Of a DNA stretch of 36,951 bases, positions 1,872 through 34,785 are shown one piece after another. The position numbers were made by a program, and so were the translations under genes. The notes beneath the pieces were generated by a model, which worked only from the letters and a program-made list of their open reading frames with translations, made no database searches and was not told the DNA's origin. This DNA comes from Pseudobdellovibrio sp. GTDB lineage: Bacteria; Bdellovibrionota; Bdellovibrionia; Bdellovibrionales; Bdellovibrionaceae. Every line of letters starts with the position of its first letter. The stretch's first letter is position 1. The stretch is taken from positions 1 to 36,951 of the forward strand of contig JAMPXC010000031.1 of assembly GCA_023701385.1 (NCBI GenBank). Direction: 5' to 3'.

Positions 1872-1876
1872 TCTTA

Positions 1877-2698: not shown

Positions 2699-2725
2699 CC
2701 TTGAAAAACTCCTTATTATTAACTA

Positions 2726-3616: not shown

Positions 3617-4401
3617 TATTTCACATTCACTGCTGTTTGAAGCATTTGATCTGAAGTTTGAACAACTTTTGAATTTGTTTCGTAAGCACGTTGTGCTGTG
3701 ATCATATTGATCATTTCATCAACGATATTTACATTACTTGTCTCTAATTGATTTTGTGCTACAAACCCTGCACCTTGGGTACCTGGGCGAGCTGTTGCAG
3801 CCTGACCACTAGCTACTGTTGGCGTAAATAAGTTTTTACCCATGCTTTTTAAGCCAGCTGGATTAATAAATGTTGCGATCTCAAGTTGACCGATCACTTC
3901 TGGTTCAGCTCCTGCTTGGTGAATAACACGAACTTCACCAGCCGGTGTAGCTTCAATAACCGTTGCTGTTTCTGGAATTGTTAATTCAGGAATTAAAGCA
4001 TTTCCGTTTTTATCTACAACGCGGCCTGAAGCATCTTTTCTAAAAGCACCATCGCGTGTGTAAGCAATTTCACCATCTGGCGTGCGTACTTGGAAAAAAC
4101 CATTACCTTCGATTTGAAAATCTAACGGATTATTCGTCATTTTAGTTTGACCGCCCGTAAAATCTTTTTGAATCGAAGCTGTGCGAACACCTAAACCTGT
4201 TTGCACACCTGTTGGCGTAATTGAATTTAAACCTGAGGCTTGGCCTGGGTCTTTTTGGTTACTATAAATAAGATCTTCAAATTCAGCGCGCGATTTTTTA
4301 AAACCTGCGGTATCAACGTTGGCAATATTATTGGCCACGACATCGATATTACTTTGTTGCGCGATCATTCCTGTAGCTGCTGTATTTAAACTTTTGAACA
4401 T
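3616..4401 (-). CDS. flgG: Flagellar distal rod protein FlgG
   Basis: FlgG forms the distal rod. The 261-residue protein matches the family in length and sequence. The N-terminal rod helix is MFKSLNTAATGMIAQQSNID followed by VVANNIANVDTAGFKKSRAEFEDLIY. The QTGLGVRTASIQKDFTGGQ and NPLDFQIEGNGFFQV segments follow, and the C terminus is VAQNQLETSNVNIVDEMINMITAQRAYETNSKVVQTSDQMLQ. It lies 29 bp downstream of flgF in the same operon and is coupled to flgA through a one-base stop/start overlap. Confidence 0.97.
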   Translation of the reverse strand: MFKSLNTAATGMIAQQSNIDVVANNIANVDTAGFKKSRAEFEDLIYSNQKDPGQASGLNSITPTGVQTGLGVRTASIQKDFTGGQTKMTNNPLDFQIEGNGFFQVRTPDGEIAYTRDGAFRKDASGRVVDKNGNALIPELTIPETATVIEATPAGEVRVIHQAGAEPEVIGQLEIATFINPAGLKSMGKNLFTPTVASGQAATARPGTQGAGFVAQNQLETSNVNIVDEMINMITAQRAYETNSKVVQTSDQMLQTAVNVK

Positions 4402-4430
4402 TTTAACCTCTTATAGTCTTTAAATTAAAA

Positions 4431-5270
4431 TTAACCTTTTGTATTACCAACTTGGTTGATCAGTTTATCGCTCATGTTGTCATAAGCACTGATCGCTTTT
4501 TGTGTTCCTTCAAACACCCGCTGCGCCATAATCATATCTGTCATTTCATTGATGATATTGACGTTACTTGTTTCTAAGAAACCTTGTTTTAACGAAGGAT
4601 TTTTAATCGCCGTGATTTCAGCATTCATATTTTCTTTTGTTGTATAGTAGTTATTACCGACTTTTTGTAAAGCATCGGTATTAGCCACATTGACCACTGA
4701 TAATTTACCCAGTTTTGTTTCGCCTTCGAAAACTTCACCGGCATCAGAAATTGTAATCGCTTGCGTACCGCTTACACGCACTGTGCGGTTATCGAAGTTA
4801 TCACCAGAAATTAATCCGTCTTCACCTTCGCCGCCCTCTAATAAAACGGGATTACCATCTTTAGTCACAAGCTGGCCGTTGCCATCCACAGTAAAGTTAC
4901 CCGCACGCGTGAATTTAACACCGGTTGGAGTTCCCACTTCAAAAAAACCTTGGCCATCAATTGCCACATCAAGTTTTCCGCCTGTTGATTTAAGGCTTCC
5001 TTGTTCGAAATTTGTGTACGTACCGGCTGCATCGACAAAAGCTTTGTCGCCGCCGTTTAATTCATAAAAACTGTCAATTGACGCTGGCATACGCGGAACT
5101 TTCATAACGTCTTGCTCTTTTTCTAAAGCCGTCAAATATTCGCTGAAAGTTTGCTGGTCTTTTTTAAATCCAGTGGTATTCACGTTCGCGATATTATTGG
5201 CGATCGTATCTAACTTTAGAGATTGCGCTACGGCCCCACTTAGGGCTGTATAAATACCTTTTAAACTCAT
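4431..5270 (-). CDS. flgF: Flagellar proximal rod protein FlgF (FlgG family)
   Basis: First gene of the rod/ring operon. I place the start at 5270 (MSLKGIYTALSGAVAQSLKL): an AAGGAG site lies about 8 nt upstream and rod proteins begin this way. An in-frame start at 5318 would add 16 atypical residues. The 279-residue protein has the rod helix with DTIANNIANVNTTGFKKDQQ, a central LDVAIDGQGFFEVGTPTGVKFTRAGNF segment, and the C-terminal FLETSNVNIINEMTDMIMAQRVFEGTQKAISAYDNM. The divergence from the adjacent FlgG and its first position suggest FlgF rather than a second FlgG. A sigma-54 promoter lies about 60 bp upstream. Confidence 0.9.
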   Translation of the reverse strand: MSLKGIYTALSGAVAQSLKLDTIANNIANVNTTGFKKDQQTFSEYLTALEKEQDVMKVPRMPASIDSFYELNGGDKAFVDAAGTYTNFEQGSLKSTGGKLDVAIDGQGFFEVGTPTGVKFTRAGNFTVDGNGQLVTKDGNPVLLEGGEGEDGLISGDNFDNRTVRVSGTQAITISDAGEVFEGETKLGKLSVVNVANTDALQKVGNNYYTTKENMNAEITAIKNPSLKQGFLETSNVNIINEMTDMIMAQRVFEGTQKAISAYDNMSDKLINQVGNTKG

Positions 5271-5330
5271 AGTTATGCTCCTTCTCACCACTAACGTGTC
5301 ACTCTTAGAGATTCTCAATATTAATGAAAG

Positions 5331-5542: not shown

Positions 5543-6514
5543 ATGATGCTTTTACGAAATCTTTTCGCTGCCATCTGTGTTTTGAATTTAGCTGTGGGCT
5601 TGCCTTTTGCGCACGCCGCGGTTTCAAAAACGGCAGATCAAAAATTAAAAACGCTTTCTCTTAAGGATAAATTAAAAATCTTAGAGCAAAAGCAAAATGG
5701 CAAAAATGAGCATTTCATCTTTGATTTACCCGTCACTTACAATCACAAAGTGAGCTACTGGATTTCTTATTACCAAACACGCGGAAAAAACTTCTTTCGT
5801 AATTGGTTAGAAAAATCTTCGAAGTACATGCCTTACATTCAAGCCGAACTGAAAAAAGCTGGATTACCTGGTGATTTAGGTTACATGGTGATGATTGAAA
5901 GTGGATTCTCGGCAACGGCTATCAGCACAGCTAGTGCTGTCGGTCCTTGGCAATTTATTCCCTCGACCGGAAAACACTACGGCCTTACACAAAACTACTG
6001 GATTGATGAACGCCGTGATTTACAAAAAAGTACAAAAGCAGCGATTCGTTACATGACTGATCTGCATGCTGAATTTGGCTCATGGTATTTAGTGGCGGCC
6101 AGTTACAACATGGGTGAAGGCGGTTTACGCAGTAAAATTAAAAAATTCGGCACAAAAGATTACTGGGAACTGGTTCGTTTAGGGGCTCTGCCTCAAGAGA
6201 CGCAAGATTATGTTCCGAAGATTTTAGCAGCCTTAATGATTGCTAAAGCCCCTAATCTTTATGGCTTTCGTAATTTAGATCACGAATTTCCGTTAAGTTA
6301 CGAGTTTGTTAAAGCTCCGGCGGGAACAGATATCGAACTTTTGGCTGATTATTTAAGTGTAACCCGCAAATCGTTAAAAGATCTGAATGCTGAATTAGTG
6401 TTAGGTTATATTCCAAAAACATCGAAACAACACTGGATTCGTGTTCCGGTAGGTTCACTCGGTGTGGCACAACAGTTTTTTCGTGATCAAAACAAAAAAT
6501 TTGCGTTAGATTAA
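5543..6514 (+). CDS. Lytic murein transglycosylase (SLT/GH23 domain, MltD-like)
   Basis: A 323-residue exported enzyme expected to cleave the MurNAc-GlcNAc bond of peptidoglycan, releasing anhydro-muropeptides. A signal peptide ends near AHA-A at residue 26. The SLT domain spans about 90-240: catalytic Glu119 in MVMIESGFS, then ASAVGPWQFIPSTGKHYGL, IDERRDLQKSTKAAIRYM, and ASYNMGEGGL. The C-terminal part (about 255-315) has weak LysM-like character (ADYLSVTRKSLKDLNAEL, then a WIRVPVG strand), shorter than the multiple LysM repeats of MltD. It is divergent from the flagellar operon across a 272-bp gap, so it may help the rod pass the wall, but this is context only. The gene begins with two ATGs in a row (5543, 5546). 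lysC follows 4 bp later. Confidence 0.92.
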   Translation: MMLLRNLFAAICVLNLAVGLPFAHAAVSKTADQKLKTLSLKDKLKILEQKQNGKNEHFIFDLPVTYNHKVSYWISYYQTRGKNFFRNWLEKSSKYMPYIQAELKKAGLPGDLGYMVMIESGFSATAISTASAVGPWQFIPSTGKHYGLTQNYWIDERRDLQKSTKAAIRYMTDLHAEFGSWYLVAASYNMGEGGLRSKIKKFGTKDYWELVRLGALPQETQDYVPKILAALMIAKAPNLYGFRNLDHEFPLSYEFVKAPAGTDIELLADYLSVTRKSLKDLNAELVLGYIPKTSKQHWIRVPVGSLGVAQQFFRDQNKKFALD

Positions 6515-6518
6515 ACCT

Positions 6519-7718
6519 ATGTTAATCGTACAAAAATATGGCGGCGCTACTCTTGCTGATCCTGAAAAAATTAAATCCGCTGCCCGCCGTATTTCTGAAT
6601 TAAAAAAGAAAAATATCCAAATCGTAGCTGTGGTTTCTGCCATGGGGCAAACTACAAATCAACTGATTGAGTTAGCTCATAATGTAAGTCATTCTCCGAA
6701 TTTACGTGAGTTTGATATGTTACTTTCTGTGGGCGAACGTATCAGTATGTCATTAGTCAGCATTGCGCTCAATGACCTGGGCCACGAAGCCATCAGCTTT
6801 ACCGGAAGCCAAGCTGGAATTTTTACCGATGAATCCCACTTAGGTGCGATGATTAAAGATGTCAAAGCTCACCGCGTACAAGAAGCTTTAGAAAAAAATA
6901 AAATCGTCATCTTAGCGGGCTTTCAAGGTGTATCGCCAATCACTAAAGAAATTACCACATTAGGCCGCGGCGGTTCTGACACTTCAGCGGTTGCTATGGC
7001 TGCATTTTTAAATGCTGATCGCTGTGAAATCTTAAAAGATGTGAGCAGTATTTTTACCGCTGATCCAAAACTGGTCCCACAGGCTAAAAAAATCACGCAA
7101 ATGAATTACGATCATTTATTAGAGATGACTTTCTGGGGAGCCAAAGTTCTGCACTACCGCTCTGTTGAATTAGCTAAAGTTAAAAAAGTTAAATTATATG
7201 TTGGCCCTGCTCACGATCATCAGCATGGTGAAAGCAGTGATGGCACAATTATCCACGAGGGCATTATGTTTGAATCTTCAAAACCGCTGGCTGTAAATTC
7301 TCACTCTAAAATTTTAGAAATGACTATACAGTCAGACACAACAGCCCAGGCCTTTGAAATGTTATTTCAGGCTTTTCAGAAATCAAATATCGCTGTTCCG
7401 CAGATTTTAAATGGCTTTGTACAAAATAAAAAAACACATGTGTTAGTAACAGCGCCATCAGAAATTTTAGCAGCTATTGAAGCGATGGATTTTACAAAAT
7501 ACCCACAAATCAGTATCGCGAATAACAAGCTATGTTCTGTAAGCTTAACTTGCACAGGTTCAACTTTAAATGACACTTTAGTTGCGGTTACGAAGAAGCT
7601 TTCTGAAAGTAATATTCAACCGGCTTACTTTATCCAGTCAGCGATGAGCTTAAATTATATTGTTGAGCAAAATCACAAAGACAAAACGATTCAGACGTTA
7701 CACAGTCTTATTGGCTAG
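6519..7718 (+). CDS. lysC: Aspartate kinase
   Basis: A 399-residue aspartokinase, catalysing ATP-dependent phosphorylation of aspartate, the first step to Lys, Thr and Met. Kinase signatures in order: VQKYGGATLADPEKI at the N terminus (KFGGTS variant), VVSAMGQTTNQL, LLSVGERISMSL, GFQGVSPITKEITTLGRGGSDTSAVAMA, and CEILKDVSSIFTADPKLVPQAKKI with MTFWGAKVLHYRSVELA. From about residue 250 to the end are two ACT-like regulatory segments. The KYGGAT and CEILKDVSSIF variants differ from the usual KFGGTS and CEIYTDVDGVY, so this is a diverged but intact family member. It begins 4 bp after the transglycosylase with no strong ribosome site, so translation may be coupled. Its last 11 bp overlap the convergent lipoprotein gene. 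Confidence 0.93.
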   Translation: MLIVQKYGGATLADPEKIKSAARRISELKKKNIQIVAVVSAMGQTTNQLIELAHNVSHSPNLREFDMLLSVGERISMSLVSIALNDLGHEAISFTGSQAGIFTDESHLGAMIKDVKAHRVQEALEKNKIVILAGFQGVSPITKEITTLGRGGSDTSAVAMAAFLNADRCEILKDVSSIFTADPKLVPQAKKITQMNYDHLLEMTFWGAKVLHYRSVELAKVKKVKLYVGPAHDHQHGESSDGTIIHEGIMFESSKPLAVNSHSKILEMTIQSDTTAQAFEMLFQAFQKSNIAVPQILNGFVQNKKTHVLVTAPSEILAAIEAMDFTKYPQISIANNKLCSVSLTCTGSTLNDTLVAVTKKLSESNIQPAYFIQSAMSLNYIVEQNHKDKTIQTLHSLIG

Positions 7719-8261: not shown

Positions 8262-10178
8262 TTATTTTGACGGAGTTTCTACTGTAATAAATGTGTGATA
8301 CTGGTCATTATAACGTTGGTTCATAATCTTCCAAATGTCACGGTTTTTACCACCGAACTCACCAGCATTAGCCATACCACGTAAAGCTGGAGCTTTAGGG
8401 CGGAATCCATTCACATCATTTTTATATCCTTTGCCATTTGAAGTTTTTGCTGGACTTCCTTTTTCGCTACCACCACCACCGAACATACTTGAGATAGCTC
8501 CTTTAGCATTTTGGAAGAAACCTGACAGACCACCTTTTTCACCGCCTTCGCCGCCTGCGCCATTACCAGCACCGTCACCGCCACCCATATTCAGATTTGC
8601 GCCCGGAGAACCTGCTGCTGCTGCCGGAGCAAATGGTGAACCGGCATCAGCTGTTGCTGTGCCTGAACCTGTTGGACGAGTTTCATCATATAAACCGCTT
8701 AAACCGCTATCATCAATTTTAACTTTACCGGCATTACTGCCACCGCCAGATGAAGAAAAACCAGGACCAGCAAATCCTGAAATCGGAGCTGCTACGCCCG
8801 AACCTTGCGGATTAATCTGTCTTACTGTCGACGCACACTTAGGATCCGTTGAACCAGGAGGACAACCTACCGAACTGTAAGAACAGCCTGGTTGATTCAA
8901 GTTTTGCATACACGTCAGTGGACTCACAACACTATCACAACTTTCTTTGCCGTTATTGCCCATAGTTAGCTGACATTTACAAATATCAGCTTTTTGCACG
9001 CTCTGCGCGAGTCTTCCGAGCATATCATCGAACTGACCTTCAGCAACCTGAGCATCGCCTTTACAAAATTTATCAATATTTTCCGAATACTTTTTGTGTT
9101 GTTGAGCACGCACCGCAAATTCATTTTTATGCTCTTCGCTCCAAGTTCCACCAGGATTTTTGGCTTCGTACTTAGCCTTACAAAGGCCTTCCAACTTATT
9201 AATATCTTCTTGAGCATACGCTTTAACGTCTGCACATCCTTGCTTACAAGCTTCTAATTCTTTTTTACAAGTTTTTTGAAATAAACTTAAAGCTTCAATA
9301 ACACCAGTGCCAGCCGCACTCATTTTTGCGCAAGATTCTAGCGCGCCCGAACCTGCATTTTGGGCGACCATAGCATCTAAACCGATAGATAGAACACGTT
9401 GGGCTTCAGAAATATTTTTATTAGTTTCTGGAGCATCTTTGCTACATTTATCAAAAGCGTCCTGACCTTTTTTAGAACAAGCTGCTTCTGCACTTTCAAT
9501 TTCTGTAAAACAGTCAGCAAAATCTTCTTCTTTTACTGTTGCTGTTGGAGATACCGGCGCTGCTTTTACACCAGGACACACTGTACCTGGTTTTGTTGCG
9601 TCCATTTCTTTATCATTTTCACAAACACAGCGAGAACCTTCTTGAACTGCACCCGCAACTGTACAACCTGTCTGATTTTCAACTTTTAAAGTATCAGGAT
9701 TTACAGGACAAGATACATACGCACTTTCTTTAGCACCTTTCGTTTTGCAAAGACAATCCCCATCACTACCTGATTTAGGGTCCCAATTAATATCCATCTC
9801 TGTAGATAATTGACCTTTCATATGCGTACAAAGCTGTTTTTTTAGTGACCCGCTGGCATTTACGCAGAAAAAGTATCCAAGAGTATTATCAAGAAGATCA
9901 CCGTGACCCGATCCGATGTATTGTGGATTTCCTGGATTAACAACAACCCCTGAGGATCCACAGGCTTTTACACCATTTCGCGCAGTAGCAGGTTTAACCG
10001 CAACTTTTTTACAACTGATTTCCTTGCCAAGCGCATCTCTGAAAACTTTAGTATAAGATTCACCAAGAAACTTAAGCTCTGAAAGCTTAACTTCTCCCGA
10101 TTCACAGCTTTGAGCTTGTGCGAGTTGATAACTTAGCAAAGATAATATGACGATGAAGTAGGATATAATGTTTTTCAT
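8262..10178 (-). CDS. Secreted Cys/Gly-rich protein, paralogue A of a four-gene array
   Basis: A 638-residue secreted protein of unknown function. I start it at 10178 (MKNIISYFIVILSLLSYQLA), which gives a clean signal peptide; an upstream in-frame start would overlap paralogue B. The first ~200 residues hold many Cys pairs. Residues ~210-400 are helical with spaced Cys (for example CKKELEACKQGC), then CKCQLTMG and short Cys loops. From ~450 the protein is Gly/Ser/Ala-rich, with SGFAGPG, GTATADAGSPF, a GFFQNAKGAISSMFGG helix, and a final KNRDIWKIMNQRYNDQYHTF motif. Paralogues B-D carry the same modules in the same order, but A is the most diverged. It begins 1 nt after the stop of B, so the two are co-transcribed. 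Confidence 0.85.
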   Translation of the reverse strand: MKNIISYFIVILSLLSYQLAQAQSCESGEVKLSELKFLGESYTKVFRDALGKEISCKKVAVKPATARNGVKACGSSGVVVNPGNPQYIGSGHGDLLDNTLGYFFCVNASGSLKKQLCTHMKGQLSTEMDINWDPKSGSDGDCLCKTKGAKESAYVSCPVNPDTLKVENQTGCTVAGAVQEGSRCVCENDKEMDATKPGTVCPGVKAAPVSPTATVKEEDFADCFTEIESAEAACSKKGQDAFDKCSKDAPETNKNISEAQRVLSIGLDAMVAQNAGSGALESCAKMSAAGTGVIEALSLFQKTCKKELEACKQGCADVKAYAQEDINKLEGLCKAKYEAKNPGGTWSEEHKNEFAVRAQQHKKYSENIDKFCKGDAQVAEGQFDDMLGRLAQSVQKADICKCQLTMGNNGKESCDSVVSPLTCMQNLNQPGCSYSSVGCPPGSTDPKCASTVRQINPQGSGVAAPISGFAGPGFSSSGGGSNAGKVKIDDSGLSGLYDETRPTGSGTATADAGSPFAPAAAAGSPGANLNMGGGDGAGNGAGGEGGEKGGLSGFFQNAKGAISSMFGGGGSEKGSPAKTSNGKGYKNDVNGFRPKAPALRGMANAGEFGGKNRDIWKIMNQRYNDQYHTFITVETPSK

Positions 10179-10179
10179 A

Positions 10180-12432
10180 TTAATTCTTCTCTCCAAAAAT
10201 AAAAGAGTCTTTTTGATCTTGAACTTTATATTGTCGATTCATAACTTTCCAAATATCTTCAAACTTACCGGCAATTTCAGTATCACTGCCTGAAGCAAGC
10301 CCGCGAATCATTTTTCCCGGACGCCATTTTTTTGCGTCAATCGGATTACCGTTCGCATCTAAACCACCGCTACCAAAACCATAGCCTGAAGTTTCGTTAT
10401 TATTCTTTTTGCTGCCGCCAAATAAATTGCCGAGCGCCCCTTTGGCTGAATTAAACATACCGCGAATTCTTGATTCAGCTGAAGATTCTGCATCTCCGCC
10501 CACTGAATTTTCGCCACTGCCAAAGTTACCATTAACTCCTGGGCTACCGCCACGGCCGTTAGCCGCACCGAATGGTGATGATGCATCTGCAGTTGTTGTT
10601 CCCGAAGCATTCATAGCTGTTACTTCATTTGATTTTAATTCACTTAAATCACCTGGGTTAATGCCTACACCTGTTTTGTCACTGCCGCCACTGACTTCAC
10701 CCACACCACCAAATCCTGAACTTCCGCCAGGACCTGCAAAACCACTCAAATTAGAATTCGAATTTATCTGTTTTACATTTGAAGCTACGCTTTTACATTC
10801 ATCACTATTCGGATTTCTAAAACAAATACATCTTGGTGAATTATCTGAAGGATTTAAACAATTCACCTGCGCATTAGCACAACCCGGAAGTGTTGGATCA
10901 GCTGAGCAATCTTTAGGACCTACTTGGTTAGTACAATTAGAACCACCCGCAGTTAATTGACACTCACACTGACTGGCACTTTTAAAAGTGTTATCCATAT
11001 CAGTCATGTAGTTACTCATTTTTTCACGATTGGTCACAGCTGTACCAGTTTCACATTTCGTGTTGTTGGTAGCCACGTTATTTTGCATTTGCTGGACTTG
11101 TTGATCAAACGCAGCTTTATTATCTTTATCCCATTCCGCATTCCAAGCATCTTCAGTAAATGCTAGAGGATACGGATTGTCTAAGCGGCATGTAAAACCG
11201 TTGCCTGTATAATAAACCCATTGTTTTTTACGACACTCTTGATAAACGCGCTCTTTGTTGGCGCTAATATATGAAGTCGCATCACCACAGCTTGTTTTAC
11301 AAGAGCTAATTTCAGTGTCACATTTACCGCGAAGCTCATCTAAAGCATAATAACCTGTAGATCCTGCTACAGCAGCTTGCGCACAATTTTGCGAAGCTCC
11401 CATTGCAGCACCTGTAGCCCCTTGTAATAAAGTTTGGAGAGCGCCAAGGGTATCATCTTCTTTACGATCTGGGTTACATTGATCAACAGCTGTTGAAGCC
11501 GCTGAATTACATGAATTTACTTTTTCTTGCATCTCACGTAAACACTCTGCTGCTGCCGTCGATGGTTGCGCTGGCGTAGCATCTGCTACACACACGCCCG
11601 CACCACCTAAACCAGCTGTATCACGATATCCATCAGCGCAAACGCAACTACGATTTTCTGAATCATAAACTTTATGATCTCCTCCACGACAAGCATTTGG
11701 ACAAATTTGATCAGTACCACGCTGAACAGAGTGGTTTCCTTCGTCATCACAACTGCAAAGAATCGGTGACCTTGAATCAGGTGTTGTACCTACAATACAT
11801 GGAGCTATGGCACAAGCACGACCATCCCAAACCCCATGTTTTTCTTCACAAGTTTCTTTCGTCGCACAACGGTGCGGAGCTTCTTCGGTACAAGCCGTGC
11901 TTGGCGTAGCCACCACAGTCTTACGTGGTGTTTCTTCTTTTTTTGTTTTGGTTGTTTTAGTTCTTTCTTTTTTAGCCGCGGCACGTTTGGCCGCTGCATC
12001 TGCTTCAAGACAGCCTTGAACCTGATTTCTGCGCTCTGATCTTGTTTTAGCATTTCTCGATTGCGCAAGACATTTATCACAAAGCGGGTCACCGACATAA
12101 CAAAGACGCGCATCACTTTGTGAATTGTCAGAACTACTTATATTTCGTTCAACCGCGAAGACACCATGATCACTTAAACATTTTTGATACTTATCACCGT
12201 AGTCACCAGCTTGTTTGTGACAATCGGCTTTAATTTTATCTTCGCCCGTTTTAGGAGCTGCCGCCGTTTTTTTTGGTTGTTGTTTTTTAAATGCTTGCGG
12301 CTTTACTTGATCAAGACAATTCACTCCGGCCTTACAAGGAATTTGCACTGTAGTTTTTTTTACTGGAGGATTAGCGAATGCAGCAATAGCAATAAAATTC
12401 ATCAAACTGATAATTAAAATTAGTTTGCTCAT
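10180..12432 (-). CDS. Secreted Cys/Gly-rich protein, paralogue B
   Basis: 750 residues, unknown function. The start at 12432 (MSKLILIISLMNFIAIAAFA) has a GAGGG ribosome site and a typical signal peptide. A Lys/Thr-rich stretch with spaced Cys precedes an EGF/TIL-like Cys cluster (CADGYRDTAG). A helical core begins AECLREMQEKVNSCNSAAST and includes AGSTGYYALDELRGKCDTEI. A second Cys cluster (CECQLTAGGSNC, CICFRNPNSDEC) leads into SNLSGFAGPG and a Gly/Ser-rich tail with GMFNSAKGALGNLFGG (about residue 658). It ends with FEDIWKVMNRQYKVQDQKD and FIFGEKN. Paralogue C shares the ending almost exactly, plus a 56-bp identical DNA tract. Its promoter block at 12475-12510 is shared with C. Confidence 0.88.
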   Translation of the reverse strand: MSKLILIISLMNFIAIAAFANPPVKKTTVQIPCKAGVNCLDQVKPQAFKKQQPKKTAAAPKTGEDKIKADCHKQAGDYGDKYQKCLSDHGVFAVERNISSSDNSQSDARLCYVGDPLCDKCLAQSRNAKTRSERRNQVQGCLEADAAAKRAAAKKERTKTTKTKKEETPRKTVVATPSTACTEEAPHRCATKETCEEKHGVWDGRACAIAPCIVGTTPDSRSPILCSCDDEGNHSVQRGTDQICPNACRGGDHKVYDSENRSCVCADGYRDTAGLGGAGVCVADATPAQPSTAAAECLREMQEKVNSCNSAASTAVDQCNPDRKEDDTLGALQTLLQGATGAAMGASQNCAQAAVAGSTGYYALDELRGKCDTEISSCKTSCGDATSYISANKERVYQECRKKQWVYYTGNGFTCRLDNPYPLAFTEDAWNAEWDKDNKAAFDQQVQQMQNNVATNNTKCETGTAVTNREKMSNYMTDMDNTFKSASQCECQLTAGGSNCTNQVGPKDCSADPTLPGCANAQVNCLNPSDNSPRCICFRNPNSDECKSVASNVKQINSNSNLSGFAGPGGSSGFGGVGEVSGGSDKTGVGINPGDLSELKSNEVTAMNASGTTTADASSPFGAANGRGGSPGVNGNFGSGENSVGGDAESSAESRIRGMFNSAKGALGNLFGGSKKNNNETSGYGFGSGGLDANGNPIDAKKWRPGKMIRGLASGSDTEIAGKFEDIWKVMNRQYKVQDQKDSFIFGEKN

Positions 12433-12474
12433 GCATTCCCTCATTGGTTCTTTTCGGCTAAAGATGATACAGAC

Positions 12475-12510
12475 TTGAGTCAATGTCTCAAATTAATACA
12501 AGACTTTTTT
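12475..12510 (-). promoter_or_regulatory. Conserved promoter/operator block upstream of paralogue B
   Basis: A 17-bp near-perfect palindrome TTGAGTCAATGTCTCAA (12475-12491) is followed by AATTAATACAAGACTTTTTT. The whole 36-bp block recurs with one difference at 14657-14692 upstream of paralogue C. Read on the minus strand, TTGAGA sits 16 bp before TATCAT, a possible -35/-10 pair, with the palindrome over the -35. A regulator binding this dyad would control both genes. Confidence 0.55.
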
Positions 12511-12537
12511 GAGGCTCAATATAGGGGTTATTAACAG

Positions 12538-14610
12538 TTAATTCTTCTCTCCGAAGATGAAATTATCCTTTTGATCCTGAACTTTATATTGGCGGTTCAT
12601 GACTTTCCAAATATCTTCAAACTTGCCCGCAAGCTCAGTGTCAGCGCCTGAAGCAAGCCCGCGTACCATTTTTCCTGGGCGCCATTTTGTAGGATCCATC
12701 GGATTACCATTGGCATCTAAACCACCACGATTAGAACCAAAGCCTGAAGAAGTTTCGTTATTTTTTTTGCCACCCAATAAATTTCCAATCGCACCTTTAG
12801 CGGTATTAAACATTCCACCAATTTTTGATCTTAACGAAGTATCGTCTTCACCTTGAGCGCTATTTGATTCACCCGATCCGAAATTTCCATTAACGCCTGG
12901 GCTACCAGCACCACTGTTAGCCGCCGAAAATGGAGACGCCTCTGCTATTGCGCTTCCCGACGCATTCATAGCAGTGATTTCGCTCGATTTAAGTTCACTT
13001 AAATCACCTACATTAACACCCACATCTGTTTTTCCACCGCTACTTGAATCGACCGTTCCGAAGCCGTCCGTCGAATTTCCCGGTCCAGTAAAACCACTGA
13101 GATTGGAATTTGGTTTTACATTGTTAACCGCACGGATACTTTTACATTCATTGCTATTTGGATTTCGGAAACAAACACACTTAGGAGAATTATCAGAAGT
13201 ACTTAAACAATTTACTTGCACATCACAGCCAGGAAGCGTCGGATCGGCCGCGCAATCTTTGGGACCAATCTGGTTCGTACAATTTGCACCACCAGAATTC
13301 AATTGGCACTCACACCGACTGGCACTTTTAAATGTACTATCCATATCAGTCATGTAATTGCTCATTTTTTCACGGTTAGTAACAGCCGTTCCAGATTCAC
13401 ATCTAGCATTGTCGGTAGCCACGTTATTTTGCATCTGTAAAATTTGCTGTTCGAAACTTGTTCTGTTTTCGGCATCCCACATCGGATTAAATCGCTCCGC
13501 CGGTAACGGCGGTCCGGCATTAGCTTGCTCGCGAAATGCTTTTTCACGACAAGCATTATAGATACGATTTTTATTTGCATTAATATATGAAGTCGCATCA
13601 CTGCAACTCGTTTTACAGCTGCCAATTTCGGTGTCACACTTACCGCGAAGTTCATCTAGTGCGTAATAACCAGTTGACCCCGCCACAGCGGCTTGCGCAC
13701 AGTTTTCAGAAGCTCCTATTACAGCCGTAGCCCCTTTTAATAAATTTTGAAGAGCACCGATCGTATCGTTTTTGTTGTCCGGGTTACATTGATCAACAGC
13801 TGTTGAAGCCGCTGAATTACATGAATTTACTTTTTCCTGTAATTCGCGCAAACACTCTTGGCCTGCGGTTGGCGACGGAGGTGTTGCTTCAGAAGCGACA
13901 CATGTTCCATTGTCGTCCCTATAACCTCCGGCACAAATACATCCACGTGTAATCAGATTATAAACCTGATGATCTTCAGCACGGCACATACTTGGACACA
14001 GCTGGTGTGTACCGCGCTCAATCGCATAGTTTACATCGTTATCACATTTACAGTAGTTACCATCACTTAAAGGACGATCTAAATCTGGAGTTGTTCCGCG
14101 GGGACAAGGCGCTACAGCGCAGGCTTGACCGTTCCAAATGCCATTGTTAGCTGTACAGGTCTCCTGTGTTGTACACCTAGCTGGAAAATTTTTAGAGCAA
14201 GTTCTTGCTGGAGCATTAACAACGATTTCTGGCAGAGTGCCGCCATCATAAATTGTATCATCGTTACCGGTTTTCATACATCGCGAAAACGCATCTGAAC
14301 TGATATCTTCAATTGTCTTTTTACATTTAATAAAAGTAGGATTTTGCGGATGGTACATTTGAGCATAGCTACCACCACTTTGCTTGATCACACCATTGTC
14401 ATTGGCGCACTCAGCGTAAATAGCATTACAACGACCCAGGGCATCTTTGGCTGCTTGAGTTTGACGTGATTCGCCCCCATATTTTGCAGAATACTCCTTC
14501 ATACAGTTTTGTATAAGCGGAGCACATTGTTTATTTGAAGCCCACTCAGCCATAGCAGACCCACTCAACAAGATTGATGAAATGAAGAATAGAAATAGAA
14601 TATATCTCAT
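12538..14610 (-). CDS. Secreted Cys/Gly-rich protein, paralogue C
   Basis: 690 residues, unknown function. I start it at 14610 (MRYILFLFFISSILLSGSAM), with a GAGGG ribosome site and a signal peptide ending near AMA; an upstream in-frame start adds seven residues without better support. Module order matches B and D: N-terminal Cys pairs, a CICAGGYRDDNGTC cluster, the GQECLRELQEKVNSCNSAAS helical core, AGSTGYYALDELRGKCDTEI, CECQLNSGGANC, CVCFRNPNSNEC, SNLSGFTGPG, a Gly/Ser-rich region, IGGMFNTAKGAIGNLLGG and the final KFEDIWKVMNRQYKVQDQKD. It has its own promoter block at 14657-14692. Intergenic gaps of about 105 bp on each side make it a separate transcription unit. Confidence 0.88.
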   Translation of the reverse strand: MRYILFLFFISSILLSGSAMAEWASNKQCAPLIQNCMKEYSAKYGGESRQTQAAKDALGRCNAIYAECANDNGVIKQSGGSYAQMYHPQNPTFIKCKKTIEDISSDAFSRCMKTGNDDTIYDGGTLPEIVVNAPARTCSKNFPARCTTQETCTANNGIWNGQACAVAPCPRGTTPDLDRPLSDGNYCKCDNDVNYAIERGTHQLCPSMCRAEDHQVYNLITRGCICAGGYRDDNGTCVASEATPPSPTAGQECLRELQEKVNSCNSAASTAVDQCNPDNKNDTIGALQNLLKGATAVIGASENCAQAAVAGSTGYYALDELRGKCDTEIGSCKTSCSDATSYINANKNRIYNACREKAFREQANAGPPLPAERFNPMWDAENRTSFEQQILQMQNNVATDNARCESGTAVTNREKMSNYMTDMDSTFKSASRCECQLNSGGANCTNQIGPKDCAADPTLPGCDVQVNCLSTSDNSPKCVCFRNPNSNECKSIRAVNNVKPNSNLSGFTGPGNSTDGFGTVDSSSGGKTDVGVNVGDLSELKSSEITAMNASGSAIAEASPFSAANSGAGSPGVNGNFGSGESNSAQGEDDTSLRSKIGGMFNTAKGAIGNLLGGKKNNETSSGFGSNRGGLDANGNPMDPTKWRPGKMVRGLASGADTELAGKFEDIWKVMNRQYKVQDQKDNFIFGEKN

Positions 14611-14656
14611 GAACTCAATTCCCTCAGCCAACCTTTCGGACGAAAGTCATACGGAA

Positions 14657-14692
14657 TTGAGTCAATGTCTCAAATTAATACAGGACTTTTTT
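14657..14692 (-). promoter_or_regulatory. Conserved promoter/operator block upstream of paralogue C
   Basis: Second copy of the 36-bp block, with the same TTGAGTCAATGTCTCAA palindrome at 14657-14673. On the minus strand TTGAGA is 16 bp before TATGAC. It differs from the 12475 copy by one base, while the flanking DNA on the gene side has diverged. That points to selection on the block or to recent duplication. Confidence 0.55.
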
Positions 14693-14716
14693 AAAGTGCA
14701 ATACAGTCGTTTACAA

Positions 14717-16810
14717 TTACTTCTTCTCTCCAAATATAAATAAGTCTTTTTGATCTTGAACTTTATAACGCTTGTTCATAACTCGCCAAATATCTTCAAA
14801 CTTACCGGCAAGTTCAATACCTTCACCCGAAGCAAGTCCACGAACCATGCGTGGACGCCATTTTTTTAAATCTATTGGATTACCGTTAGCATCTAGGCCG
14901 TTACCATAAGCACCCGATTTTGTGGCCTCACTGCTGTTCCCTTTTTTATCGCCAAATAAATTTCCAATCGCACCTTTGGCCGCATTAAACATTCCACCTA
15001 TTTTTGCATTGATTGAAGAGTCAGCTTCACCCTGAGCTGCATTTTCACCTGATCCGAAATTACCATTAACACCAGGGCTACCACCAGCACCAGCGACTCC
15101 AAATGGAGATCCCCCATCAGCTGTTGTAGTTCCTGAAGAATTCATAGCCGAGACTTCGTTTGAAGCAAGATTTTTGAAATCATCAGCGCTCAGATCAATA
15201 CCCGTTTTTCCACCGGCACCTGTTTCACCAATTCCATTTGTCGGAGTTACGGCACCAGGTCCCGCAAAACCATTTAGATTTGAATTTGTATTTACATTTG
15301 GTGTGCCTGCAACATTTTTACATTCACTGCTATTAGGGTCTCGGAAACAAACACACTTCGCCGAAGCATCAGAAGGGTTTAAACAATTTACCTGTGCATT
15401 CGCACATCCCGCCAGCGTTGGATCGGCCGCACAATCTTTTGGACCAACTAGGTTTACACAGTTTGCACCACCAGAACTTAACTGACATTGACACTGGCTA
15501 GCCGCTTTAAAGGTGCTGTCCATATCAGTCATATAGTTACTTACTTTTTCACGGTTGGTAACAGCAGTTCCTGACTCACACTTAGTGTTGTTACTGGCAA
15601 CACTAGCTTGCATTTCTTGAATTTTTTGTTCGAAGGGAGCTTTATTCACTTTATCCCATTCTTCATTCCAAACATCTTCAGTAAAAGCCATAGGAAACGG
15701 ATTGTCGAAACGGCAGCTTAAATAATCATACTGCTTTTTACGGCAGGCTTGGTAAATACGGTCTTTGTTGGCATTGATATACGAAGTCGCGTCACCGCAA
15801 CTTGTTTTACAGGTACCGATTTCAGTATCACATTTGCCACGCAGTTCATCTAAGGCGTAATAACCTGTTGAACCCGCCACTGCGGCTTGAGCACAGTTAT
15901 CTGAAGCGCCCATAACTCCCGTCGCGCCTTTTAATAAATTTTGCAGTGATGTGATCGTATCATTGTTTTCACGATCGGGATTACATTGATTAACAGCCGT
16001 ACTCGCTGCTGAATCACAAGAATTTACTTTTTCTTGAATTTCACGCAAACAATCTTGCGCTGTCTCTGATGGCTGTACTGGTGCCGCAGTTGCTACGCAC
16101 ACCATAACATTATCAGTACTGCCTGATGGATCACGATACCCGTCAGCACAAGCACAACTTTTAGTTGGCCCATCATAAACTTTATGATCTTCAAAGCGGC
16201 ACATACTTGGACATTGTTGTTGTGAACCACGCTCGATAGAAATACTGATATCACTTAGACATCGGCAATTTTGCGGAGAAACATTATCAGCCACCGTACC
16301 TTGCGGACATGCAACCGCCGCACAAACTTGACCATCCCAAGACCCATTATTATAGGCACAAGTAAGTTCTGTCGTACATTTTTCAGGATATTGTTTTGAA
16401 CATGTTCCGAGAATAGCTTTCGGTTGTAGGATCGTGTACTCAGCTTTTTCAGTTTTTTTAGTACTACCCTGCGTTCGTCCACGCATACACGCCGTAAAGG
16501 CATCTGAATTCGGATCAGAAATTGTTTTACGACATTCAATAAAGTCAGCGTTGGCCGGATTATACATTTGAGCGATACGACCACTTTTTTGTGTGATACC
16601 GCCGTTGGCAGCACTACATTCATTAAAATGTGCTAAACATTGTGCCTGGGCAACTTGGCGATCGGGATTAATTCTTAAACCAAATTTTCTTTTCACGTCA
16701 GCCATACAAGCTGTCATCTCAGGATTACAATTTCGATTAACAATTGCGGCTGTTGCATTCGCATCAAATGAAAAGAAGATGGCTACTAGCAAAAATAAAC
16801 TAAATCTCAT
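14717..16810 (-). CDS. Secreted Cys/Gly-rich protein, paralogue D (first of the array)
   Basis: 697 residues, unknown function, and the most upstream member of the array. The start MRFSLFLLVAIFFSFDANAT gives a signal peptide and has a GAGGGG ribosome site. N-terminal Cys-containing repeats (NRNCNPEMTACMADVKRKFG, then a Cys-spaced segment) are followed by CACADGYRDPSG, AQDCLREIQEKVNSCDSAAS, AGSTGYYALDELRGKCDTEI, CQCQLSSGGANC, CVCFRDPNSSEC, SNLNGFAGPG, a Gly-rich tail with IGGMFNAAKGAIGNLFGD, and the final KFEDIWRVMNKRYKVQDQKD. The palindromic block that precedes B and C is not present upstream, so regulation may differ. The upstream neighbour (PLP enzyme) is 65 bp away and probably a different unit. 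Confidence 0.88.
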   Translation of the reverse strand: MRFSLFLLVAIFFSFDANATAAIVNRNCNPEMTACMADVKRKFGLRINPDRQVAQAQCLAHFNECSAANGGITQKSGRIAQMYNPANADFIECRKTISDPNSDAFTACMRGRTQGSTKKTEKAEYTILQPKAILGTCSKQYPEKCTTELTCAYNNGSWDGQVCAAVACPQGTVADNVSPQNCRCLSDISISIERGSQQQCPSMCRFEDHKVYDGPTKSCACADGYRDPSGSTDNVMVCVATAAPVQPSETAQDCLREIQEKVNSCDSAASTAVNQCNPDRENNDTITSLQNLLKGATGVMGASDNCAQAAVAGSTGYYALDELRGKCDTEIGTCKTSCGDATSYINANKDRIYQACRKKQYDYLSCRFDNPFPMAFTEDVWNEEWDKVNKAPFEQKIQEMQASVASNNTKCESGTAVTNREKVSNYMTDMDSTFKAASQCQCQLSSGGANCVNLVGPKDCAADPTLAGCANAQVNCLNPSDASAKCVCFRDPNSSECKNVAGTPNVNTNSNLNGFAGPGAVTPTNGIGETGAGGKTGIDLSADDFKNLASNEVSAMNSSGTTTADGGSPFGVAGAGGSPGVNGNFGSGENAAQGEADSSINAKIGGMFNAAKGAIGNLFGDKKGNSSEATKSGAYGNGLDANGNPIDLKKWRPRMVRGLASGEGIELAGKFEDIWRVMNKRYKVQDQKDLFIFGEKK

Positions 16811-16875
16811 GGCCCCTCACCTGTTAAGTTTCGGTCAAAACACAAACAGGCTGAAGATCACAATGTAAATAATAT

Positions 16876-18015
16876 TTATTTTAAAACAAAAAGTGCTTTT
16901 TCTAAATCAGTTTCTGTGTTGAATGCGTTCGGAGTGAAACGTAATCCCGGGCCACGAACTGCATGAAAAATCTTTTCTTTGTTTAATTTGTCTGAAAGTT
17001 CTTTGTTCGTCATCGCACCACGAGGCTTAACATTAATAAACGGTGTTGAATTGATTTTTTCACTCTGATAAGGAGATACAATTTCGTATCCTAAATTCAC
17101 TAACCCCTGACGAAAAATTTTTGCTAATCGCAAGGCTTCAGTCTCGATATTTTTTATTCCAGTTTTCTGGAGCACATCTATAGATGCCCCCATCGCTGTA
17201 ATTTCTAAAACTTGTTTTGAACCCGGTTCAAATTTCAAAGCATCGCGTTTTGGTACACAGGCAAAATCTGAAGGGTCATCACAGGTTCCGTACGTGTACA
17301 TACCGATCACATGCGGTTTAAATTTTGGAATATGATTTTTACGTAACGCTAAATAACCAACACCTACTGGTGATGAAAGCCATTTATGACTTCCACCCAT
17401 CACAGCGTCTGCTCCCCAGCTCCAGATTTCACACGGATGAAGACCAAACCCCTGAATGATATCGACAGAAACAAAAATTCCTTTTTGCTTCGCTGTTTCG
17501 ATCACGTGTTTAATATCTTCCATTTGGCTTCCGGCCTGAAACTGCACCCAGCTAAAAGCAATCACTTTTGTTTTTGGTGTGATCGCTTTTAAATATTTCT
17601 CCATCGGAGTTGATAAGTTTTTTTCTGATTCAACGATAACAAGGTTTGCACCCACTTGATCGCACGCGGCTTTCCAGGGGTAAAGATGACTTCCGTACTC
17701 TTGATCCCACATTAAAACTTCATCGCCCGCTTGCAAACCGCACGAAAAAGCCACTTGGCTAATCGCTCCTGCGGTTGAAGAAAAGAATGCGACTTCACCC
17801 GCTTCACAGCCGATCATACCGGCTAAACTTGTGCGTGTGTTCGTTACATCAGCGGCGTAATCTTTATCGGTGTTGTAGCCTTCTTCCCAGAAGCGGCGTG
17901 ACCAGTAATCAATTTTTTCACGAGCGGCTCGTGTGATGGGTTGTAAACCCGCATTGTTTAAATGCACCAACTCGTTTCTGTTAAACTGGGCCTTGTAAGC
18001 TTCTAAGCTAGACAT
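16876..18015 (-). CDS. Class V PLP-dependent enzyme, probable C-S lyase (EgtE-like)
   Basis: A 379-residue fold-type I PLP enzyme. I start it at 18015 (MSSLEAYKAQFNRNELVHLN) because an AAGGA site lies about 8 nt upstream; a longer in-frame reading would extend into the OvoA fusion gene. PLP features: FFSSTAGAISQ near residue 77, SVDIIQGFG with Asp185, and GGSHKWLSSPVGVGYL with the Schiff-base Lys211. The C terminus (GPGLRFTPNAFNTETDL) is typical of the family. It overlaps the end of the sulfoxide synthase gene by 13 bp, so the two act together. In ergothioneine and ovothiol pathways a PLP lyase cleaves the sulfoxide adduct to the thiol, and that is the likely job here. A cysteine desulfurase or kynureninase-like role cannot be excluded. 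Confidence 0.8.
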   Translation of the reverse strand: MSSLEAYKAQFNRNELVHLNNAGLQPITRAAREKIDYWSRRFWEEGYNTDKDYAADVTNTRTSLAGMIGCEAGEVAFFSSTAGAISQVAFSCGLQAGDEVLMWDQEYGSHLYPWKAACDQVGANLVIVESEKNLSTPMEKYLKAITPKTKVIAFSWVQFQAGSQMEDIKHVIETAKQKGIFVSVDIIQGFGLHPCEIWSWGADAVMGGSHKWLSSPVGVGYLALRKNHIPKFKPHVIGMYTYGTCDDPSDFACVPKRDALKFEPGSKQVLEITAMGASIDVLQKTGIKNIETEALRLAKIFRQGLVNLGYEIVSPYQSEKINSTPFINVKPRGAMTNKELSDKLNKEKIFHAVRGPGLRFTPNAFNTETDLEKALFVLK

Positions 18016-21000
18016 GTATTTCCTTCTTTGATCAGTTGGATAAGCTCTTGCACCTGGGCAAAGTGTAACCGATACCCTAAAAGACAAATGCGAATCGAAT
18101 AACAGCCACCGATTTCACAGCCGCTTAAGAAAATTTTATTCTGCGAATTAATCCAGCCTAAAAGTTTTTTTGTTTTTTCTGAATTACCTAAATTAAAAGT
18201 TTGAATTGTTAAATGCGGTTCAGAAATCACGTTCACTGATTCGATTTTTTTAAGTTCTGCGTTTAAGTATTCAGATAATTTAATTTTTTCTTCTAAATTT
18301 AATTTAAATGGGCCGACCCCGAAAGCTTTTAGCGGAAGCCATACACGTAAGCCACGCGGGTCACGTGATAATTCCGGAGAAATATCGGCAAAGTCGATCA
18401 TGCTAAACTGTTCATCCTGAAGTCCTGGTGACGGCGGCATATAAGAACTGCTTCCCGCGTACTGTGTTTGCAAGTCGCCTTTATTTTTAATCAACAAACA
18501 GCCTACACCATACGGAATTTGCAAGGCTTTGTGTGGGTCTAGAGCCACTGATTGTGAACGCTCAATACCTGATAAAACTTTTTGGCCTTTTTCAGTTAAC
18601 ATAAATAAAGCGCCGTAGGCCCCATCAACGTGAAACCATATTTTATTTTTTTCACAGATATCGGCTATCGTACTTAATGGATCAACAGCGCCTGTGTTTG
18701 TTGTACCCGCAGTTCCAATCGCAGCAACTGTAATAAATCCGTTTTTCTTATCTTCGGTGATTGCTTTTTCGAGTTCAGAAGCAATCATTGAATAGTTTTG
18801 ATCGACCGGAATTAAACGTAAACACTCTTTCGGAAATCCTAAAAATGCTAAGGCTTTACCGATGCAGTGATGCACTTGTGTTGAAGCGTAAAAACGCGCT
18901 TTGGATAAATCGTTTTGATTGGCAAATAATTTATTTCTAGCCGCAGCTAAAGCCATCATGTTGGCTTGGCTTCCGCCACCCGTCAAAATACCTGTAGCTG
19001 TTGTATCAGGATATTTCATCATCGTGGTAAACCAACGAATCACTTCCATCTCTAAAGTGACTAAACCTGGAGCTAAACTAAAATGACCGGTGAATTGATT
19101 CATCGTCATCGCTAAAGCATGCGCTGGCGCACTCAGTGGATTTGCAGCACCTGCCACATAAGCCATATAACCTGGATGCCCTGGTTGCTGCCCCAGTGGC
19201 GCGATATCTTGTGCTAAGAACTGCACGAGTTTTTCAAAGCTTTCTGGGTTTTCAGGAAAGTTTTTCGTTGTTTGATACGGTCTACGATAATCTTTTTTAA
19301 TATCGTTTGTATAAGGATCAAGCGCTGATCCCATCGGAGAAACGTCTTTACGGTTTTGCTCAAAGTTAGTTACAAACTTTTCAACCGCTTGATAAGTTTT
19401 TTGAATTTCTTCGGCTGATAGCTCCATGGGTTGTTGAACCTGACGCCACCAGTTTTCATTTTGCATTTGATCTAAAACATTTTCACGACGTGTGTGAACA
19501 TATTCGCCGTTTTGTTTAAGTCTTACAGCAGCGTTATCAGTTGAACCATCTAAGGTTGTCGAAATACGAAAGCCTGCATGTTGAAAAAAATGCGGACGAA
19601 AGTGAAAGCGCGCATTCACACTGGCTTCATGGCCACAGCTGATAAAACTTCCGCCTAAGATCATTTGATGTTTGCCATCAAAACACGGTGTTGAAAAATC
19701 ATCGTAAAGTTTATTAATTTTAAATCCTTCAAGAGGATTAAATTGATCTTCAGCCCACTGCCAGACGTTTCCGAATAAATCATAAACGCCATCTTGCAAG
19801 GCTCCTGCGTTCACCGGGCGTGGTGAAGCGTGGTGATAGTTAAAATTAAATTTTTCAGACATGGTATCAGAAGATTTTTTATATTCTTGCTTTTGCAAAA
19901 CATCGTCTTCTTTTAAATTTAATTTTAACGAAACAAATTCAGCTTCAGTGATTAAACGGTAGTGCAGTGTTGATTTATCTTGTTCTTGCTTCCAACGGCA
20001 ATAAGCCTGCGCTTCGTGATAGTTCACTTCAGCAGGCCAATCCCATGGCATATCGATAATTTCAAAAACCGTACGTAATTTGTAATCGTGTAAACCTTCT
20101 GGGCCGTAAGCCACCCAAAATGTCGGGCGTTTTGTGTTACGAAATTTACGCCACATTAAACCTTCAGCTTGCCAGTATTTATCTTCAGTATAAGCTCCTG
20201 TGGCCACGAAATCATAATACTCACCGTTACTGATTAAGGCTTGAGTCATTTGAAAATCTTTTGTTTTAGAATTTCTATGACCGTATTCATTATCCCAACC
20301 AAAACTTGGCGCTGTTTCTGGTTTACCGTAAGAAACAAGGCTTCCTTGGTGTTTGCTCCACGCATTGACCGGAAAATCTTTACCTGCAACTGGCTTTGCT
20401 GTCTTTGTGGATTTAGTTCCATAAAGTGGCGCCCAGTATTTTGGAGTTTCAACTAACTCAATCGGAAGTTCGCGCATCAACACGCTGCTTGTTTCGAAGT
20501 GAATTTTTTCATGTTCAAATCCCATGAATAAAGCCCATAGCGGATGTTGTGGCCCAAGTTTAATATTTTTAGTTTTACGTGTTTCAAAATCTAAATCGGG
20601 ATGGGTCTGAATTAAATTTTTTATAAGGTTATAGATTTTTTGGCGATACTCATGAATTGTCGCAACCGATGGCCATTCCATCTCATTTTTCGACATATCA
20701 TCCCAACTCATTTCATCTACGCCTGTTTCAAGAACTTTCTCGAGATATAAATCCACAGGATTGTCCACAACACCGGCTAAACGTAATTTATTTAAAAATA
20801 AAACCGCTGGATGGCCATAGTAAAAAGCCAGTGGATGGCGCAACTGATGGTACGGAGGGCGCACATAAGTTGATTCATGCTTAAGGCTTGAAAATAAAAC
20901 TTCAGTTAAAGTCCACGTGTTATCGAAATAATCCAGAACATCTTGGCGTGTGCAAATTTCTAAATTAATCAAAGGCAATGCCGCTAGATATTTTTTCTCA

Positions 21001-21158
21001 CGGTCAAAACCCACACATTTTTCGGGGTGAACACCCGTCCACCAACGGTGACCAAATTTTTGCTGCACTTCGTTTGGCGAACTGCGGTCAACTTTCGGCG
21101 CTGATAAGTTGGGATTACGAGTTAAAGATACGGTTTGTGGTGTGTTGCTTAATGACAT
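18003..21158 (-). CDS. ovoA: Fusion of OvoA-type histidine-cysteine sulfoxide synthase and PLP group II decarboxylase
   Basis: A 1051-residue fusion. Residues ~35-240 are a DinB-like domain with the OvoA signature LETGVDEMSWDDM (143-155) and a probable iron site of His116 (YYGH), His216 and His220 (FEHEKIH). Residues ~265-535 are an FGE/sulfatase-modifying-type domain (LFGNVWQWAEDQF, LGGSF, FQHAGFRIS). These two domains define the enzyme that joins cysteine to the histidine imidazole as a sulfoxide using iron and O2. Where OvoA normally carries a SAM methyltransferase, residues ~563-1045 are a PLP decarboxylase: GGGSQANMMALAAAR (727-741), stacking His763, HVDGAYG with Asp845, and DPHK with Lys877. 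It may decarboxylate the histidyl adduct or its thiol product. The start lacks a strong ribosome site. Confidence 0.88.
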   Translation of the reverse strand: MSLSNTPQTVSLTRNPNLSAPKVDRSSPNEVQQKFGHRWWTGVHPEKCVGFDREKKYLAALPLINLEICTRQDVLDYFDNTWTLTEVLFSSLKHESTYVRPPYHQLRHPLAFYYGHPAVLFLNKLRLAGVVDNPVDLYLEKVLETGVDEMSWDDMSKNEMEWPSVATIHEYRQKIYNLIKNLIQTHPDLDFETRKTKNIKLGPQHPLWALFMGFEHEKIHFETSSVLMRELPIELVETPKYWAPLYGTKSTKTAKPVAGKDFPVNAWSKHQGSLVSYGKPETAPSFGWDNEYGHRNSKTKDFQMTQALISNGEYYDFVATGAYTEDKYWQAEGLMWRKFRNTKRPTFWVAYGPEGLHDYKLRTVFEIIDMPWDWPAEVNYHEAQAYCRWKQEQDKSTLHYRLITEAEFVSLKLNLKEDDVLQKQEYKKSSDTMSEKFNFNYHHASPRPVNAGALQDGVYDLFGNVWQWAEDQFNPLEGFKINKLYDDFSTPCFDGKHQMILGGSFISCGHEASVNARFHFRPHFFQHAGFRISTTLDGSTDNAAVRLKQNGEYVHTRRENVLDQMQNENWWRQVQQPMELSAEEIQKTYQAVEKFVTNFEQNRKDVSPMGSALDPYTNDIKKDYRRPYQTTKNFPENPESFEKLVQFLAQDIAPLGQQPGHPGYMAYVAGAANPLSAPAHALAMTMNQFTGHFSLAPGLVTLEMEVIRWFTTMMKYPDTTATGILTGGGSQANMMALAAARNKLFANQNDLSKARFYASTQVHHCIGKALAFLGFPKECLRLIPVDQNYSMIASELEKAITEDKKNGFITVAAIGTAGTTNTGAVDPLSTIADICEKNKIWFHVDGAYGALFMLTEKGQKVLSGIERSQSVALDPHKALQIPYGVGCLLIKNKGDLQTQYAGSSSYMPPSPGLQDEQFSMIDFADISPELSRDPRGLRVWLPLKAFGVGPFKLNLEEKIKLSEYLNAELKKIESVNVISEPHLTIQTFNLGNSEKTKKLLGWINSQNKIFLSGCEIGGCYSIRICLLGYRLHFAQVQELIQLIKEGNTCLA

Positions 21159-21351: not shown

Positions 21352-21840
21352 ATGAAAAAAAGTTTTTTTGATTTCACAGTGAAAAGCGCCCAGGCCAAAG
21401 ACTATGACTTAGCACAACATAAAGATAAAGTTGTTTTGGTGGTGAACGTTGCCAGTAAATGTGGTTTTACTCCACAGTACAAAGGGCTAGAAGCATTGTA
21501 TCAAGAACACAAAAATGAAAACTTCACAATTCTTGGTTTTCCATGCAATCAATTCGGTTCACAAGAACCAGGATCAAATGAAGAAATTCAATCTTTCTGC
21601 GAAATGAATTACGGTGTTACATTTCCGGTTTTAGGAAAAGTAGCCGTGAATGGCTCTGATGCTGATCCAATTTACAAACACTTAAAAGAAGAAGCTCCAG
21701 GAATTTTCGGCACTGAGGCTATCAAATGGAACTTCACGAAATTTTTAGTTGGTAAAGACGGTCAAGTGATCGAGCGTTTCGCGCCAAACACTGAGCCACA
21801 AGATATCAACGAAGCCATTAAGAAAGCGTTAGGTAAATAG
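21352..21840 (+). CDS. Glutathione peroxidase family thiol peroxidase
   Basis: A 162-residue peroxidase that would reduce hydrogen peroxide or lipid hydroperoxides, using glutathione or more likely thioredoxin as donor. The active site NVASKCGFTPQY carries the peroxidatic Cys37 (Cys, not Sec). LGFPCNQFGSQEPG contributes Gln71, and KWNFTKFLV contributes the conserved Trp and Asn. Cys65 and Cys83 are further cysteines, one of which may resolve the disulfide. No signal peptide is seen, so it is cytoplasmic. The start has an AGAGAGGA ribosome site. It lies downstream of an OxyR-type motif and 2 bp before a small secreted protein gene. Confidence 0.95.
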   Translation: MKKSFFDFTVKSAQAKDYDLAQHKDKVVLVVNVASKCGFTPQYKGLEALYQEHKNENFTILGFPCNQFGSQEPGSNEEIQSFCEMNYGVTFPVLGKVAVNGSDADPIYKHLKEEAPGIFGTEAIKWNFTKFLVGKDGQVIERFAPNTEPQDINEAIKKALGK

Positions 21841-34737: not shown

Positions 34738-34785
34738 TGACGACTGGTTCCGAGCTATTTGCCCAAGGAAAGGAACAAATATCCC

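Follow-up and report, generated by a model that had tools for sequence, protein, structure and literature searches.

Four long tandem open reading frames (ORFs) on the minus strand of the window, meaning the whole 36,951-nucleotide stretch of Pseudobdellovibrio sp. DNA that was analyzed, encode paralogues of a new, undescribed family whose logic resembles that of the Kil pilus tips of Myxococcus, although its members are not pilins. The Cys-rich family is spread through the order Bdellovibrionales, linked through a sister clade to a TadG-like large pilin, apparently expressed in the attack phase, and differently expanded and diversified in each lineage. We hold it to be an evenly balanced call that the array encodes attack-phase, Tad-pilus-associated surface proteins in which a constant anchor carries a diversifying head; the encoded proteins are probably involved in contact with prey or surfaces.

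Four paralogues with a constant core and tail

ORF calling placed four tandem ORFs of 644 to 767 aa within positions 8262 to 16810 (8262 to 10196, 10180 to 12483, 12538 to 14631, and 14717 to 16810, all minus strand), with starts that are mechanical calls. The paralogues were named P1 to P4 by order of transcription, and P3, P2, and P1 were taken as the copies lettered B, C, and D in the original prediction.

14717 to 16810, minus strand: paralogue P1, first gene of the array, 697 aa with 37 Cys
15311 to 16075, minus strand: P1 Cys-stapled helical core with C-C cluster, residues 246 to 500 (AlphaFold2 and invariant Cys)
14717 to 14890, minus strand: P1 C-terminal tail module, residues 641 to 697 (...RGLASG...DIWRVMNKRY...)
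12538 to 14610, minus strand: paralogue P2; the ORF opens at 14631, and the likely start gives 690 aa
10180 to 12432, minus strand: paralogue P3; the ORF opens at 12483, and the likely start gives 750 aa
8262 to 10178, minus strand: paralogue P4; the ORF opens at 10196, and the likely start gives 638 aa; the divergent copy and orthologue of the second gene of Bdellovibrio sp. qaytius

That these are four tandem secreted Cys- and Gly-rich paralogues, as originally proposed, was confirmed at these coordinates by the ORFs, by BLAST (pairwise E values of 0 to 5e-32, identity of 33 to 65%), and by a Sec-type hydrophobic leader in each protein. A simple hydrophobicity rule found such leaders in 65 of 76 family members, with several of the failures representing ORFs with misplaced starts or truncations. 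When the four proteins were aligned, identity to the first sequence was 59, 56, and 27%, many Cys and Gly positions were invariant (including Cys in the core), and the C terminus was closely conserved. The predicted CxCQL cluster, G(F)xGPG motif, Gly/Ser-rich region, AKGA helix, and DIW..MN..Y tail could all be located in every copy. The N-terminal Cys pair attributed to all four was clear in P1 and P2, weaker in P3, and absent from P4. A further Cys cluster is common to P1, P2, and P3 as described, but its EGF/TIL label is unsupported and no more than a resemblance, because the cluster has no Pfam domain match; at E values up to 1, EGF/TIL models went unmatched and the one line listed was DsrC (E of 0.18).

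Divergence was not evenly distributed along the proteins, as P1 to P3 consist of a variable N-terminal head upon a constant core and tail. Identity among these three was 17 to 37% in the N-terminal Cys domain, 47 to 52% in the next Cys cluster, 70 to 76% in the core, and 78 to 87% in the tail.

The original prediction had recognized no described family, and the database searches agree. Pfam, NCBIfam, and PHROGs contained no model scoring above cut-off for P1 to P4, no PDB sequence matched them, and no study of these genes was found in the literature, including under the HD100 tags Bd0520 to Bd0529. A phage origin was dropped because phage records and viral contigs held no relatives of P1 to P4 and PHROGs gave no match. 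The AlphaFold2 model of full-length P1 was poor (pLDDT of 52), with very low confidence in the Gly/Ser region, as disorder would give, and a tail modeled as a helix at low confidence. The P1 core alone was predicted as a helical bundle with long helices (pLDDT of 78, pTM of 0.69).

Distribution and repeated duplication at a conserved site

A profile built from the four window members detected the family in 27 of 66 genomes of the same taxonomic family. Profiles from the widened family raised this to 111 of 140 genomes of the order Bdellovibrionales, a distribution that rules out chance as the source of the pattern, and to 130 of 368 genomes in the phylum, with few and weak hits beyond the class. 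The closest named relative in a scan of genome contigs, and the only named one, was Bdellovibrio sp. qaytius, and members also occur in a genome that we take to be B. bacteriovorus HD100 (G003), in keeping with the earlier suggestion that the DNA came from a predatory bacterium. Three array copies are present in this presumed HD100 genome, at 488113 to 492573, and its TadG locus is at 131949 to 136742. A 247-aa gene at 483879 to 484622 in the same genome fits Bd0519, which is 247 aa (PMC10127604), and FlgF is Bd0530 (PMC12546842); from these positions we infer that the three HD100 array genes lie between Bd0519 and Bd0530.

The array site is conserved in most family genomes examined, in the order glutathione peroxidase, array, aspartokinase, SLT transglycosylase, and flgF/G/A/H/I. 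The corresponding features in the window are as follows.

21352 to 21840, plus strand: glutathione peroxidase, conserved array border across the family
6519 to 7718, plus strand: aspartokinase-like (lysC) gene, the opposite conserved border (sequence and synteny)
5543 to 6514, plus strand: SLT-domain lytic transglycosylase, followed by flgF/G/A/H/I
873 to 5318, minus strand: flgF/G/A/H/I

Copy number at this site varied from one to four across the family genomes. A tree of 73 members grouped copies by genome or close lineage, indicating that duplication of the array was repeated and lineage specific. P1 to P3 formed one group (support of 100/99), P4 joined the second gene of B. qaytius (100/100), and separate expansions were seen in G036, G015, G003, G007, G044, G051, and G046.

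Between the array and the glutathione peroxidase gene, both the window and B. qaytius carry genes that look like part of an ergothioneine- or ovothiol-type thiol pathway, which were not at that place in the other fetched genomes. One (18003 to 21158, minus strand) encodes a fusion protein in which a pyridoxal decarboxylase is joined to DinB and FGE-sulfatase (EgtB/OvoA-like) domains, and beside it lies a class V aminotransferase gene (16876 to 18087, minus strand).

FliA-like promoters upstream of family genes

Two-thirds of the mapped attack-phase promoters of HD100 carry the FliA site TTAAG-N16-CCGATA (PMC3627812). Searching from −90 to +30 of each ORF start and allowing up to two mismatches, this site was found at 42 of 75 family genes (56%) compared to 45 of 633 other genes at the same loci (7%). 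Control searches gave similar values for family and other genes, at 5% and 4% on the reverse strand and 1% and 3% farther upstream. When the region was widened and no more than one mismatch was allowed, the counts were 25 of 75 versus 16 of 626 (Fisher P of 2.8e-16, to be read as a guide, the underlying rows being related and the 75 genes not phylogenetically independent). Within the window, three of the paralogues have candidate sites with the same 16-base spacing, and the −35 box is about 45 to 53 bases from the start.

16829 to 16855, minus strand: P1 FliA-like promoter, TTCAG-N16-CCGAAA, two mismatches
14634 to 14660, minus strand: P2 FliA-like promoter, TCAAT-N16-CCGAAA, three mismatches, at the same spacing and a similar distance
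12452 to 12478, minus strand: P3 FliA-like promoter, TCAAG-N16-CCGAAA, two mismatches

The P2 and P3 promoters both fall within repeat D11. No FliA-like promoter was found for P4, and the TadG genes themselves lack a FliA site. Judged by these motifs, the family looks to be expressed in the attack phase.

Two other features were noted near this site in other genomes. Three tandem 155-aa genes adjoining the glutathione peroxidase gene of genome G049 (locus L042, 6656 to 8873) each have a near-perfect FliA-like site (TTAAA-N17-CCGATA) and are perhaps another attack-phase tandem family. In HD100, the abundant attack-phase small RNA APsRNA1 (PMC3627812) is encoded at 499375 to 499581, directly past flgI (498400 to 499326).

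A sister clade beside TadG and a shared C-terminal tail

Beyond P1 to P4, the window genome had no match at the BLAST level that relates these four to each other, and profiles added one remoter member, on contig C85. Three genes make up this second conserved locus, which was found with a profile of the C-terminal 75 residues: the first encodes a TadG-like pilin (Pfam Tad, E of 7.7e-7), the next the Cys-rich protein, and the third another secreted protein. The TadG-like pilin (locus L085, 4983 to 7493, minus strand, 836 aa) is conserved through the order, and the same trio occurs in another family of the order. Of 63 genomes of the phylum with a strong TadG match, 48, the window's own included, have a Cys-rich gene of this sister clade at most 5 kb downstream of it on the same strand (a count of listed matches only, with coordinates copied by hand from the search tables). 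The two genes were within 1 kb of each other in 44 of the 48, with a median gap of 386 bases, and most exceptions had them on different contigs. TadG-linked members stand apart from array members in the tree, with few exceptions. Neither TadG nor any other tad gene lies near the array; its own link to Tad pili would come through the sister clade, by guilt by association.

The third protein of the TadG locus has an unrelated body, yet its end, GVAGDDIFLMMNRRYKLK..Q.SF, aligns with the array tail, LAGKFEDIWKVMNRQYKVQDQKDSF (hhalign E of 1.1e-6 over 30 columns), and among the fetched loci this tail was present on these two families only. A tail common to two otherwise unrelated secreted proteins of one locus suggests that both use a common docking partner or sorting route.

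The tad marker RcpC was present in 64 of the 66 genomes of the taxonomic family. The window's genome is one of the 64, with RcpC on contig C50 and the TadG-like gene on contig C85. Other classes of the phylum have TadG but not the Cys-rich family, and these proteins are therefore dispensable for Tad pili.

A candidate set of interchangeable heads for Tad pili

If the array encodes Tad-associated surface proteins of the attack phase, a Sec-exported, disulfide-rich family would have undergone tandem expansion lineage by lineage, with each gene transcribed in free-swimming attack-phase cells from its own predicted FliA promoter. The leader would direct export by Sec, and disulfide formation would accompany folding into the modeled helical bundle. 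The flexible Gly-rich linker and conserved C-terminal helix could then anchor the protein to the machinery of the Tad (type IVc) pilus, perhaps at a TadG-containing tip, leaving the variable N-terminal Cys domain as the putative exposed part that meets prey or surfaces. With several copies, a cell would have a choice of heads to exchange on a single type of anchor, comparable to the Kil tips.

PilY1 and PilC are tip adhesins of type IVa pili. The proposed proteins are like them in being large, exported, non-pilin proteins that would sit at a pilus tip, but there is no Pfam sequence or domain match between them, and the likeness is a functional analogy only.

Myxococcus builds interchangeable tips for its Kil pilus from four sets of TadE/F/G-like minor pilins, whose exposed domains vary and whose prey preferences differ, and a B. 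bacteriovorus tip was modeled in the same study (PMC12075869). The KilL/KilM/KilN tips with TadE/TadF/TadG (PMC12075869) share with the array the use of multiple paralogous sets with variable domains, which in the array are putatively exposed, many predicted disulfides, and occurrence in predatory bacteria; their association with a TadG-like large pilin has a counterpart in the sister clade of the array. However, the window proteins have a helical-bundle core, and their array is outside any tad cluster. P1 to P4 have neither a pilin domain (Pfam Tad/TadE) nor a prepilin-type leader, carrying Sec-like leaders instead, and are not themselves minor pilins.

The TAD operon of Bdellovibrio (bd0109 to bd0119) is under FliA; predation requires flp1, flp2, and flp4, whereas attachment does not (PMC5430801). 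This operon and its flp pilins resemble the Cys-rich family in the latter's predicted FliA control and attack-phase timing and in presence in the same genomes, although the window genes lie outside the operon, and the main text describing it does not mention TadG (PMC5430801). A broader proposal, which we offer tentatively and consider somewhat doubtful, is that Bdellovibrionales customize Tad pili with a rapidly duplicating, Sec-exported, disulfide-rich set rather than with variable minor pilins of the Myxococcus kind, using a common C-terminal helix for docking and variable heads for prey recognition or invasion. Candidate genes for the part that touches prey are the three HD100 genes between Bd0519 and Bd0530 and the one adjoining the TadG-like gene.

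Alternative roles

The original prediction had guessed at matrix, fiber, or prey-contact proteins. That interpretation is partly supported: the FliA sites and TadG adjacency now point to attack-phase, Tad-linked surface proteins, and a generic matrix is less favored. Secreted or envelope matrix proteins, or cell-wall-like structural proteins, made in the attack phase, cross-linked by disulfides, and unrelated to Tad pili would account for the Sec leaders, the mean Cys content of 3.9% across the family, the long Gly-rich linkers, and the attack-phase promoters. We consider such a role unlikely, as it leaves unexplained both the adjacency to TadG and the tail held in common with a second secreted family.

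The proximity of the array to flgFGAHI throughout the family, together with the FliA-type promoters, raises the possibility of flagellum-associated proteins coexpressed under FliA, for example components of a membrane-sheathed flagellum or its surface. This is improbable, because the oppositely oriented lysC and transglycosylase genes separate the array from the flg genes, the sister clade adjoins TadG rather than flagellar genes, and members, although as weaker matches, are kept in genomes at least 90% complete that lack FlgI (G073, G095, G124, and G125). Of the two, a function with the Tad pilus is the better fit. We give equally little credence to a role in the periplasm, without surface exposure, as chaperones or assembly factors of the Tad tip. 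The operon-like placement after TadG suits such a role, and through their common tail the proteins could bind one periplasmic partner, but a rapidly diverging head and a changing copy number are seen more typically in exposed parts.

It is very improbable that the proteins are effectors with a ClyA-like helical fold that the Tad pilus delivers and that form pores in prey or damage it, since the fold searches that placed ClyA and AhlC among the top matches of the P1 core returned ClyA-like toxins and generic helical bundles at noise level (Foldseek E above 0.001), the match to ClyA (VIA Z of 9.3, root mean square deviation of 5.8 Å over 201 residues) falls below what helical bundles reach by chance, the core is Cys stapled, and designed bundles score alike.

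Elsewhere in the window, tandem genes at 33844 to 34629 and 34759 to 35577 (both plus strand) encode two secreted paralogues, each pairing an SdrD_B-like N-terminal domain with a C-terminal domain of unknown type, and a gene at 29166 to 30362 (minus strand) encodes a 398-aa, probably exported protein that had no Pfam match. The gene at 22883 to 24136 (plus strand) encodes a HipA-like kinase in which Pfam recognizes both the N- and the C-terminal HipA domain.
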